This document shows, piece by piece, positions 3,036 to 32,540 of a stretch of DNA of 64,000 bases. Location of the stretch: assembly GCF_001654835.1 (NCBI RefSeq), contig NZ_LXEP01000022.1, positions 1 to 64,000 of the forward strand, read 5' to 3'. A model generated the notes under the pieces. That model ran no database searches. It saw only the letters and a program-made list of their open reading frames with translations, and was not told the DNA's origin. Source of the DNA: Buttiauxella gaviniae ATCC 51604 (GTDB taxonomy: Bacteria > Pseudomonadota > Gammaproteobacteria > Enterobacterales > Enterobacteriaceae). A program made the position numbers and the translations under genes. Every line of letters starts with the position of its first letter. Within the stretch, counting starts at the first letter, position 1.

Positions 3036-3390
3036 CGCTCTTTCCTCTTGGGTGAACTTTTATCCTGTCAGCTTGCTAATAGTGCATAAAGAGGTGAAAT
3101 AATGTTCTTCGTAATGCCTTCCAGACTTTCGGGTGAGATTTCTTTTTTGAAAATAATTCTGCGATGAGCTTCGCAAAAGATTTATTTCTGGAAGATTTTT
3201 TGGCAATAGAGATAAGAAATCGCACTATATGAAATATTTTCACTATCTCGTTATTTGCTGAAAACAAATAGTTTTTCTGCCAGCCAATTTTTTCAGCCTC
3301 TGTTTCAATATAAAAAATTCTTGTGCTTTTAACTGACTCTGTGATAACTCTGTAGGTATTACTTCGAACAAGTAGACAGAATAAACAAAC
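3036..3390. other. AT-rich yifB-ilvL intergenic region
   Basis: 355 bp without a convincing gene. It is much richer in A+T than its flanks (3080-3330 especially) and must hold the ilvL promoter and the upstream activating (IHF-type) region known for ilvGMEDA in E. coli. I did not find a consensus promoter. The best pair is TTAACT (3329-3334) with TAGGTA (3353-3358), at a long 18-bp spacing. A 63-codon minus-strand reading frame (3076-3267) is lysine-rich but matches nothing I know. Confidence 0.5.
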
Positions 3391-3489
3391 ATGAAAGCCC
3401 TTCTACGAGTGATTAGCCTGGTCGTGATTAGCGTGGTGGTGATTATTATCCCACCGTGCGGGGCTGCACTTGGAGAAAGAAAGGCTTAA
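3391..3489 (+). CDS. ilvL: ilvGMEDA leader peptide
   Basis: A 32-codon leader peptide that starts MKALLRVISLVVIS and contains 15 Leu/Val/Ile residues. It matches E. coli IlvL apart from the second residue (Thr to Lys) and the C-terminus (GERKA instead of GRGKA). Ribosome stalling at the Ile/Val/Leu codons when charged tRNAs are scarce prevents formation of the downstream terminator (3512-3543) and lets transcription enter the operon. It is too short to have another role. Confidence 0.97.
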   Translation: MKALLRVISLVVISVVVIIIPPCGAALGERKA

Positions 3490-3511
3490 AAATCAAGCCT
3501 GAATCGAAAAG

Positions 3512-3543
3512 AACCCCCGCACCGAAAGGTCCGGGGGTTTTTT
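3512..3543 (+). terminator. ilvGMEDA attenuator terminator
   Basis: A GC-rich hairpin, AACCCCCGCACC-GAAA-GGTCCGGGGGTT, followed by T6. It lies 22 nt after the ilvL stop codon, which is the classical attenuator position. Confidence 0.95.
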
Positions 3544-3575
3544 GTTGGGCAAAGAAACTCGGAGAGAAACAGATG

Positions 3576-3626
3576 ATGCGTTACAGAATAAAATGCTGTT
3601 TCTCCGATAATGCGACGGGGAACTAA
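3576..3626 (+). CDS. ilvX: Small protein IlvX
   Basis: A 16-codon [19 protein letters not shown], that ends 2 nt before the ilvG start. E. coli IlvX (recalled as MNNSTKFCFSRFRTGN) has the same length and position, and shares the CFS core and the TGN end. A GGAG at 3561-3564 is a ribosome-binding site; the ATG at 3573 just upstream gives a 17-aa form and fits the RBS spacing better. The tight spacing suggests translational coupling to ilvG. The function of IlvX is unknown. Confidence 0.75.
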
Positions 3627-17830: not shown

Positions 17831-17948
17831 AGTGTGGTAGAATATCAGCTAACTATTGCTTTACGAAAGCGTATCCGGTGAAATAAAGTCAACCTTAAGT
17901 TGGTTAATGCTACACCAACAAGGTAGACATAATCCTGCGGAGTAGAAC

Positions 17949-18278
17949 ATGAGCGATAAAATTATTCACCTGACTGACGACAGTTTCGACACGGACGTGC
18001 TAAAAGCTGATGGGCTGATCCTGGTTGATTTCTGGGCAGAGTGGTGTGGTCCATGCAAGATGATCGCCCCGATTCTTGATGAAATCGCTGATGAATATCA
18101 GGGCAATCTGACCGTTGCTAAACTGAATATCGATCAGAACCCGGGCACTGCACCAAAATATGGTATCCGTGGTATCCCAACTCTGTTGCTGTTCAAGAAC
18201 GGTGAAGTGGCTGCGACCAAAGTTGGCGCGCTGTCCAAAGGCCAGTTAAAAGAGTTCCTCGACGCTAATCTGGCATAA
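17949..18278 (+). CDS. trxA: Thioredoxin 1
   Basis: A 109-aa cytoplasmic thioredoxin with active site WCGPC (C33 and C36) and the cis-proline in [11 protein letters not shown]. It reduces ribonucleotide reductase, methionine sulfoxide reductase and PAPS reductase. It starts [20 protein letters not shown], with CGGAG upstream. It is divergent from rhlB and upstream of rho, as in E. coli. Confidence 0.98.
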
Positions 18279-31213: not shown

Positions 31214-31290
<77 letters not shown>

Positions 31291-31361
31291 TTGATTGAAT
31301 GGGGCCAGAGCTGCGGCGGTACTCTTCGCAAGAAGATAGTCCGCGCGAAAAGATTTACAGT

Positions 31362-31438
31362 GGTGGCTATAGCTCAGTTGGTAGAGCCCTGGATTGTGAT
31401 TCCAGTTGTCGTGGGTTCGAGTCCCATTAGCCACCCCA
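31362..31438 (+). tRNA. hisR: tRNA-His (GTG anticodon)
   Basis: 77 nt including the extra 5' G typical of tRNA-His (GGTGGCTAT). The anticodon loop ATTGTGATT gives GTG. Ends in encoded CCA. Confidence 0.97.
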
Positions 31439-31455
31439 TTTAATTTAGTGATATT

Positions 31456-31542
31456 GCGAAGGTGGCGGAATTGGTAGACGCGCTAGCTTCAGGTGTTAGT
31501 GTTCTTACGGACGTGAGGGTTCAAGTCCCTCTCTTCGCACCA
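31456..31542 (+). tRNA. leuT: tRNA-Leu (CAG anticodon)
   Basis: An 87-nt class II tRNA with a long variable arm. The acceptor stem is GCGAAGG/CTCTTCGC, the anticodon loop CTTCAGGTG gives CAG, and CCA is encoded. 17 bp after hisR. Confidence 0.97.
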
Positions 31543-31581
31543 TCTCTAAGTTGAAAGCAGTAAGAAGTGAATGCAGTATTT

Positions 31582-31658
31582 CGGCGAGTAGCGCAGCTTG
31601 GTAGCGCAACTGGTTTGGGACCAGTGGGTCGGAGGTTCGAATCCTCTCTCGCCGACCA
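31582..31658 (+). tRNA. proM: tRNA-Pro (TGG anticodon)
   Basis: 77 nt. The acceptor stem is CGGCGAG/CTCGCCG, the anticodon loop TTTGGGA gives TGG, and CCA is encoded at 31656-31658. Its last 19 nt are repeated at 31789-31807 and 31938-31956. Confidence 0.97.
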
Positions 31659-31665
31659 AATTTAG

Positions 31666-31694
31666 AAAAGACCAACCCTCGGGTTGGTCTTTTT
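31666..31694 (+). terminator. Terminator 1 of the proM repeat
   Basis: Stem AAGACCAACC/GGTTGGTCTT with T5, 8 nt downstream of the proM CCA. It should end most tRNA operon transcripts. Confidence 0.9.
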
Positions 31695-31814
31695 GCATCT
31701 GTAGTTTGAAGAGGATGAGAATCTCCGCAGGAGGTTTGAGCCGAGCGAAGCGAGACAACGTTGCTTTAGCAACGACCCGTAGGGGAATAATCCTCTCTCG
31801 CCGACCAAATTTAG

Positions 31815-31843
31815 AAAAAGCCAACCTTCGGGTTGGCTTTTTT
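31815..31843 (+). terminator. Terminator 2 of the proM repeat
   Basis: AAGCCAACC-TTCG-GGTTGGCTT with T6. Compared with terminator 1, two adjacent stem pairs have changed on both sides (GA to AG, TC to CT), so pairing is preserved. Confidence 0.9.
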
Positions 31844-31964
31844 GCATCTGTAGTTTGAAGAGGATGAGAATCTCCGAAGGAGGTTTGAGCCGAGCGAAGC
31901 GAGACAACGTTGCTTTAGCAGCGGCCCGTAGGGGAATAATCCTCTCTCGCCGACCAATTTCAAG

Positions 31965-31994
31965 AAAGCCTAACCGGCAAGGTTGGGCTTTTTT
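31965..31994 (+). terminator. Terminator 3 of the proM repeat
   Basis: AAAGCCTAACC-GGCAA-GGTTGGGCTTTTTT. The stem is kept (one T-G pair) although the loop and linker differ from units 1 and 2. Confidence 0.85.
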
Positions 31995-32337
31995 ACGTCT
32001 GCAGTTTATGGGTTTGTAGGAAAGGATGGTGCTGTGCCTGGCTCACCAGGAAAATGCGCATCATACAACCGCGTATCCCAATCCCCAGTCTCTAAATCAC
32101 GACATCATGATATTTATTGTCGCCGTTTGGTGACTCTTAACTTATTGATATAAATGAATAACGATAATTCCCGGTTTAAGTGTCTCCAAAAGGAGACGCT
32201 CTTGTCGATTTTTGAAAGGGCTGGAATAGCCAATGTGGTGCACATGTCTTCTGAGATAACATCATGAATATAAAATGATTTCAGGTTAAGGGTAATTACG
32301 AATTCAAACCTGGCATGCATCGTGCAATAATATACAT
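31995..32337 (+). promoter_or_regulatory. glmZ upstream region: sigma54 promoter and GlrR-type site
   Basis: No gene seen. TGGCATGCATCGTGCAA (32311-32327) has GG and GC 10 bp apart, the sigma54 -24/-12 spacing, 13 bp before the glmZ start. An overlapping AT-rich -10-like stretch (CAATAATATACA) could serve sigma70. TGTC-N10-GACG at 32181-32198 fits the GlrR site TGTC-N10-GACA with one mismatch. Further TGTC half-sites lie at 32203 and 32245. Confidence 0.7.
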
Positions 32338-32540
32338 GTAGATGCTCATTCCACTTCTTATGTTTGCTTAGGCTTCATAAACCCAGGAATGACGCAGAGC
32401 CGATTACGGTGCTTATCGTCCACCGACAGATGTCGTCTTTCAGACCTCATCCAACACCATGGACATAACGTTGAGTGAAGCACCACTTAGTTGTCTTAAA
32501 GACCTGTTTTGACACCTGCCAATTGGCAGGTGTTTTTTTT
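32338..32540 (+). ncRNA. glmZ: sRNA GlmZ
   Basis: A Hfq- and RapZ-dependent sRNA that activates translation of glmS (glucosamine-6-phosphate synthase). The 5' end GTAGATGCTCATTCCA, the central GAATGACGCAGAGCCG and GGTGCTTATCGTCCAC segments, and the GTTGAGTGAAGCACC region followed by AGACCTGTTTT match E. coli GlmZ. It ends in a perfect terminator, ACACCTGCC-AATT-GGCAGGTGT plus T8 (32512-32540). Its position between the proM operon and hemY is as in E. coli. The 5' end is set by homology. Confidence 0.93.

Follow-up and report, generated by a model that had tools for sequence, protein, structure and literature searches.

Two RtT RNAs behind proM of Buttiauxella gaviniae are tRNA-linked repeats, members of a family that appears closely fitted to its neighbouring tRNAs

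Background

Why should the 3' end of a tRNA gene be repeated, at exact intervals, behind the gene itself, and what kind of RNA would such an arrangement yield? The question is raised by a locus of Buttiauxella gaviniae ATCC 51604, at which the end of the tRNA-Pro gene proM recurs downstream, each time in front of a terminator-like hairpin. We analysed a stretch of 64,000 nucleotides around it (contig NZ_LXEP01000022.1, positions 1 to 64,000), referred to as the window throughout, and compared its repeats with related sequences in other bacteria.

A preliminary description of the locus had likened the array to the tyrT repeats of Escherichia coli and had taken such repeats to be known from tyrT only. 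This is too narrow, because PMC8144298 (Stenum et al. 2021) places the RtT RNAs among the 'tRNA-linked repeats' (TLRs), first described in 1978, and counts 22 of them at ten loci of E. coli K-12, with one to five units per locus, and RefSeq likewise annotates RtT behind a tRNA-Pro gene. In the same account the last 18-19 bp of each K-12 TLR are a perfect match to the tRNA or rRNA before it, and the TLRs are described as having 'no known function'. For the 5S-linked rrB of E. coli it reports an RNA of 173 nt that arises by read-through of the terminator T1 (~87% efficient), starts 3 nt beyond the mature 5S and stops 3 nt beyond the copy; its authors propose that RNase E recognises the repeat, and that rrB takes part in growth-rate-tied low-level regulation with Hfq/CsrA. 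RNA from rrA/B/F was detected in E. coli by Northern blot, and a claim that connected the tyrT RtT with the stringent response has been retracted (both according to PMC8144298).

Other reports touch on the family from different sides. Two RtT RNAs with a Northern signal are placed upstream of Asn and Lys tRNA genes in Actinobacillus pleuropneumoniae (PMC4986893), an earlier report describes a tandem GA motif in RtT (PMC7657543), and PMC12584984 mentions an E. coli mutant that lost RtT together with one Tyr tRNA. The tie of RtT to tRNA genes may not be absolute, since PMC2965389 reports rtT-like sequence in BIMEs that lie in front of protein genes.

Results

The repeat array behind proM

ARAGORN finds the tRNA genes Arg-CCG, His-GTG, Leu-CAG and Pro-TGG at 31214-31658 of the window, a cluster that we take to be of the argX-hisR-leuT-proM type. 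In E. coli K-12 the same four tRNAs (Arg, His, Leu, Pro) are found behind wecG and thrP. The last gene of the cluster, tRNA-Pro(TGG) or proM (31582..31658, on the + strand like all features of the array given below), is the source of the copies with its positions 59-76. Its last 19 nt (31640..31658) form the start of repeat unit 1 (31640-31788, 149 nt), which the repeat search reports together with unit 2 (31789-31937, 149 nt) and a third, partial copy of 38 nt (31938-31975), the start-to-start spacings being 149 and 149. As the preliminary description had it, the 19 nt return in full (19/19) at both steps, at 31789..31807, which is the start of unit 2, and at 31938..31956; the difference between the two units, given there as about 8 of 149 positions, is exactly 8 (95% identity).

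A hairpin and a T run follow each of the three tRNA ends, also as described before: terminator 1 at 31666..31693 (13-bp stem, 13/13 in the arms, fold z -4.25), terminator 2 at 31815..31842 (12/12 in the arms, z -3.74) and the final terminator 3 at 31962..31994 (14-bp stem, z -3.35). A pattern-based terminator scan listed only the third of these hairpins, and that in part; terminators 1 and 2 were not among its hits, and its total for the window (2) is at the level of shuffled sequence (mean 1.6). Differences in the terminator stem had been regarded as compensatory and hence as a sign of selection. Four of the eight differences do make up two exchanged base pairs, so this part of the claim stands. 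The stem type of unit 2 is, however, also that of terminator 1 at a paralogous Pro locus of the same genome (L002), and terminator types change places between the Pro loci of Buttiauxella species, so that, from the sequences compared, exchange of a terminator cassette accounts for the two changes better than new, independent paired mutations do.

Behind each of the first two terminators lies an RtT, or tRNA-linked repeat, RNA. The first (31694..31807) scores 73.4 bits against RF00391 and 92.2 bits against R1, a model that we built from 60 units of the host's order, chosen because they carry a local copy of the tRNA end; the second (31843..31956) scores 72.0 and 92.3 bits. Both exceed the RF00391 gathering score of 45 bits, and 35 nt separate the CCA of tRNA-Pro from the first match. 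The 5' arm of unit 1, AGAGGAT (31710..31716), complements ATCCTCT at 31790-31796, i.e. tRNA positions 59-65, in a closing helix, P1, and the arm of unit 2 (31859..31865) complements 31939-31945 by its sequence. This helix is short in the window units (7 bp, positions 59-65, AGAGGAT/ATCCTCT), and unit 1 is a variant without the last core hairpin, D. Units 1 and 2, taken whole, fold no better than shuffled sequence (z -0.49 and -0.40); the structural evidence for the RtT units comes from comparison.

Two less favoured readings of the array can be dealt with here. The tyrT repeats contain a small basic, protamine-like reading frame. Short basic frames with TTG starts run through the units of the window as well (31855-32019, +, 54 aa, and 31598-31858, +); no ATG start and no conserved frame came to light in these units, and a protein-coding role is not favoured, short basic frames being all that was found. 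That the array is an assembly artefact is unlikely to judge by the sequences, given the eight differences between its units and the arrays of two to six units in other genomes.

Further Rfam matches of the window are GlmZ sRNA (RF00083, 196 bits, 32338-32539), which lies just downstream of the array and for which this is an ordinary location, 'Rev39 5'UTR' (RF02744, 153.9 bits, 3316-3613) and the trxA thermometer (RF02773, 105.6 bits, 17891-17978).

A known family at an additional locus

The array behind proM is a pair of RtT RNAs, i.e. TLRs, and an ordinary member of a known family; the likeness to the tyrT repeats turns out to be membership. Both units match RF00391 above gathering over the whole model and differ from the tyrT RtT in having Pro instead of Tyr arms and in that the Buttiauxella Pro units lack core hairpin D. 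Like the K-12 TLRs they stand in tandem directly behind a tRNA gene, contain 18-19 nt of its 3' end and have a terminator before the unit, and two full units are inside the K-12 range per locus; host and locus are different, and proM of K-12 has no unit. There we found a terminator, but no copy with at least 14 of 18 matches within ~600 nt. What is new here is thus an RtT array at a tRNA, proM, where K-12 has none, whereas the class itself is published, and the tailored copy of the tRNA end had to be rejected as a novelty because it is already present in PMC8144298. No description of a proM-linked repeat was noticed in the literature searched, in searches that were not aimed at proM by name.

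With RrA/RrB/RrF the proM units share dual terminators that enclose a unit, ends fixed by the repeat of the 3' end, and a related core; the former are tailored to 5S, and for tRNA-linked TLRs CsrA binding is not predicted in the account of PMC8144298. The trailer RNA 3'ETS-leuZ is similarly a product of a tRNA operon trailer, but acts as a base-pairing sponge, and a copied tRNA end is not mentioned where PMC8144298 introduces it.

The copied tRNA end

In the host genome RF00391 has seven hits (four over the cut-off and three weaker), all of which follow tRNA genes. A Lys-Lys-Lys-Val-Lys cluster accounts for two of them, Val-Val-Val-Lys and Ser for one each, and Pro for three. The family was found in 85/394 genomes of the host's order, in 65/394 over the cut-off (a tally that includes the host). 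We examined 153 hits, 150 among the matches listed for the order plus the three weaker host hits. A same-strand tRNA lies upstream of 145 of them, and in 121 of these the 3' end repeats 17 nt or more of it (Pro 41, Lys 33, Tyr 28, Ser 19). Eight of the remaining 32 start inside a tRNA-Lys gene and were hence compared with the wrong tRNA or with none; the rest carry degenerate or shifted copies, mostly in the final unit of an array, lie at a contig edge, or follow no more than the 3' third of a Ser tRNA. For none of 262 hits was an opposite-strand tRNA found within 300 nt.

Over 211 distinct placed units (237 hits, 7 unplaced) the mismatch between copy and tRNA is 1-8% at positions 59-76 and reaches 46% at position 58, and identity is 0.00 at position 57: in these alignments the copy comprises tRNA positions 59-76 and has a sharp edge. 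Selected units match their own tRNA at a mean of 17.89 (111 units; L040, whose tRNA begins beyond the edge of its stretch, is left out) and 17.95 of 18 positions, compared with 11.2 for tRNAs of other amino acids. By its sequence, each unit behind proM is composed of a tRNA-end copy, a terminator and an RtT core, and the RtT ends 3' in positions 59-76 of its own tRNA.

Some loci depart from the common layout. At L086, L091, L092 and L073 the RtT follows no more than the 3' part of a Ser tRNA, and no complete tRNA is called; displacement of the tRNA end or damage to the gene may explain this. L006 (G000:C32:38392-41528) has two tandem tRNA-Ser(GGA) genes with the same terminator behind each and a Ser-arm RtT behind the second, and two tandem copies of the Pro tRNA gene, with RtT units behind the downstream one only, are present in Erwinia rhapontici (L110) and Enterobacter sp. 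Cy-643 (L114). At L001 (G000:C7:66981-70106) RtT units form the spacers between tRNA-Lys genes; they should be co-transcribed with the cluster, as there is no evident terminator in front of them.

The fitted 5' arm

The 5' arm complements the copy and varies with the tRNA: it reads GGGGAAGGAT at Tyr, CGTGCAGGAT at Lys, GAGAGGAT at Pro and GAGGGAGGG at Ser loci. In an antisense test the arm was closer to the antisense of its own tRNA than to that of the best other type in 88/109 units, and was not in 21/109. A pairing test, in which some arms are misplaced (e.g. L028, L036, L093) and the local-pairing score may be lowered by this, found the unit's own copy to beat most sampled copies of other amino acids in 95/112 and 59/80 units, and not to be the best fit for the arm in 17/112 and 21/80. 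The proposed structure, P1 included, is paired in 85.1% of cells over 60 units, against 72.7% in shuffled and 35-43% in slid arrangements, and double-change cells number 257 against 84 in shuffles. Over the family, these comparisons show, the 5' arm changes with the tRNA in such a way as to pair with the copy and thereby close the RNA. An alternative pairing, S2, in which the T-stem is re-formed around the core, covaries too; it is indistinguishable from mimicry of the tRNA, its covariation being expected if the flanks are copied tRNA, and we did not choose it.

An RNase P minihelix with a tRNA-like 5' end has an arm that pairs up to tRNA position 72. The arm of the RtT units stops at a median position of 68 and reaches 72 in 16/192 units, and in the window it covers positions 59-65 only. 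A complete tRNA-like acceptor stem cut by RNase P was therefore rejected, and 5' cleavage of the RtT by an RNase P-type cut is not supported.

Distribution among bacteria

The units behind R1 having been selected for their copy, the tests of the copy that are independent of this selection are the RF00391 survey and those tRNA classes on which R1 was not trained (Gln, Arg, Glu, Asp). Across the class, R1 finds the family in 142/369 genomes (host included). Among the matches listed, 109 class hits were examined. A tRNA precedes 93 of them (Ser 44, Gln 30, Tyr 11, Arg 6, Glu 1, Pro 1), and 17 nt or more of it recur in 84 of the 93; the remaining 25/109 are mostly contig edges, array interiors and degenerate units, and a few are without a findable tRNA. 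RF00391 itself is over its cut-off in 10/20 class loci given to it, so that what R1 finds is the spread of RtT and not a different family. Across the phylum the family was found in 60/299 genomes, a tally that includes the host and the genomes whose units trained R1; 36 of the 60 are outside the class, 32 of these in one family (f220). Of 13 phylum loci examined among the matches listed (11 from f220), 12 follow a tRNA, with Lys, Asp and Arg among the types, and each of the 12 repeats 19 nt of its tRNA. Altogether the tRNAs that bear units are of the classes Tyr, Pro, Lys, Ser, Gln and Arg, with one Glu and one Asp.

The 5S-linked core of E. coli rrnB is a weak match to R1 (22.5 bits). At this K-12 locus (L234:2229-2393) the stretch GAGTAGG, 7 nt long and 5S-like, is followed by the core and then by an 18-nt copy overlapping the 5S end; the 5S-linked core may thus also interrupt a copied 3' end, although the 7-nt stretch could be chance. 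The 5S gene of the host genome sits at a contig end, and the eight weaker R1 hits in this genome include several that are not beside a tRNA.

On the whole the family seems to range more widely, and to match each of its tRNAs more closely, than the account consulted (PMC8144298) describes: neither the fitted 5' arm nor the spread beyond the order was noticed there. No publication of a fit of arm and copy to the neighbouring tRNA was found in the literature searched, a scope outside which the original papers lay.

Variation in unit number

Most loci have a single unit per tRNA, 91/113 by Rfam hits (two to six at the other 22) and 65/78 by R1 hits (two to four at 13). In E. coli, RefSeq annotates RtT behind the tRNA-Pro gene between eptB and dppA in 4/5 strains examined. 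This gene, which we take to be proK, is followed by 0 (ESY001), 1 (K-12 AG100) or 2 (ETEC4071) full units with a period of 168 bp, and in ESY001 and K-12 AG100 a truncated unit comes next. Among 60 evenly spaced records RtT was annotated under the match in 28, was lacking in 31, and one was unrelated; 27 of the 31 unannotated records have a match shortened from 481 to 313-316 bp, i.e. by one 168-bp unit. Recombination is the most likely cause of this variation in unit number. At three E. coli proK loci (L116, L118, L119) the final, truncated RtT unit stops inside the core, and the sequence that follows it resembles a REP/BIME element. It may bear on the likeness between rtT and BIMEs that is reported in PMC2965389.

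Discussion

A model for the proM array

Judging from its sequence and from the analogy with rrB, we regard it as likely that the locus behind Buttiauxella proM is a two-unit TLR array from which read-through and processing at the copies would release RtT RNAs of ~150 nt. The units would be part of the transcript of the argX-hisR-leuT-proM type cluster, in which most polymerases would stop at terminator 1 and a fraction would read through. By the example of rrB in E. coli, the copied tRNA end would then reproduce the landmark by which transcripts are processed just downstream of a mature tRNA or rRNA 3' end, and cuts after each CCA would produce RNAs of ~150 nt with tRNA-like 3' ends, their level being tied to the transcription of the tRNA. 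Recombination between the repeats would let the unit number rise and fall. The preliminary description had envisaged read-through RNAs of about this length bounded by the repeated end, and this form comes close to what is described for rrB. RtT may be rare here, because terminator 1 looks strong. Our best guess at the role of RtT, weakly supported for the tRNA-linked members and drawn from rrB, would be growth-rate-tied low-level regulation. The function proposed for rrB may not carry over to these members, since the 19 tRNA-linked TLRs of K-12 score <0.01 as CsrA binders (PMC8144298).

Alternative explanations

At the level of the family we consider plausible, though less than probable, the reading that TLRs are an ancient, locus-fitted RNA family of the Gammaproteobacteria and at least one family outside them, in which both arms are rewritten behind a new tRNA or 5S gene and the RNA closes on the last 18 nt of its neighbour. 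A rather unlikely alternative makes the units non-functional tandem repeats, by-products of local duplication without any selected RNA, in which recombination between direct repeats and template switching between the inverted arms maintain the likeness to the tRNA gene. The exact periods by which unit number varies within E. coli would suit it, as would the shuffling of terminator types between paralogous Pro loci, the degenerate or shifted copies usual in the 3'-most unit, and the 175-bp VNTR of Salmonella that is listed in rtT RNA (PMC2658671). The sequence that follows the arm speaks on both sides: the arm continues with TTCGA, which is exact T-loop antisense, in 25/192 units, as template switching would have it, but is followed by TGAGA, which is not exact tRNA antisense, in 76/192, and frequent templated copying should erase just that. 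Mere duplication also sits badly with core hairpins that stay paired through many double changes in distant families, and with a family that is recognisable across the class.

We think it quite improbable that the core is a miniature mobile element, with the 18-bp direct repeats as att-like sites, which integrates into the T-loop of new tRNAs. The sharp boundary at positions 58/59 and the presence of a related core behind many stable RNA genes, even the 5S gene of rrnB, are what such an element would leave, and one fork of the core tree unites cores of the Lys, Tyr and Ser types, with Lys and Tyr cores from a single genus meeting in it (support 94/64, unstarred). The units are, however, only 149-224 bp apart, simple integration does not explain a 5' arm that matches the tRNA, and core type follows tRNA type: on a core tree of one family the tRNA type changes 8 times against 30.7 in shuffles. 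From this tree, which with 68 columns and 63 rows is poorly resolved and was used as a hint, the spread of the core looks mostly vertical with few switches of tRNA type. Equally improbable to us is a regulator in trans, in which a freed RtT or its antisense-like arm would pair with the tRNA, its precursor or sRNAs as a sponge. The 5' arm often largely complements the T-arm and the 3' strand of the acceptor, and 3'ETS-leuZ is a precedent for a trailer sponge (PMC8144298, introduction), yet the copy at the 3' end of its own RNA already gives the arm a partner in cis, and in the mature tRNA that strand is already occupied.

Conclusions

If the reading of TLRs as an ancient, locus-fitted family is true, the core sits inside an interrupted copy of the 3' end of its host stable RNA, and either templated homogenising of direct and inverted copies, or selection for a site that processing cannot tell from the neighbour's own, would be needed. 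With units at eight amino-acid classes of tRNA and a fit to the neighbour in most units tested, the role of RtT becomes testable by comparison, and the family would provide a set of natural replicates for the way in which 3' processing is directed by the final 18 nt of a tRNA. The array behind proM is itself one more TLR; what deserves to be followed up is how arm and copy fit their neighbour across a broader set of bacteria.
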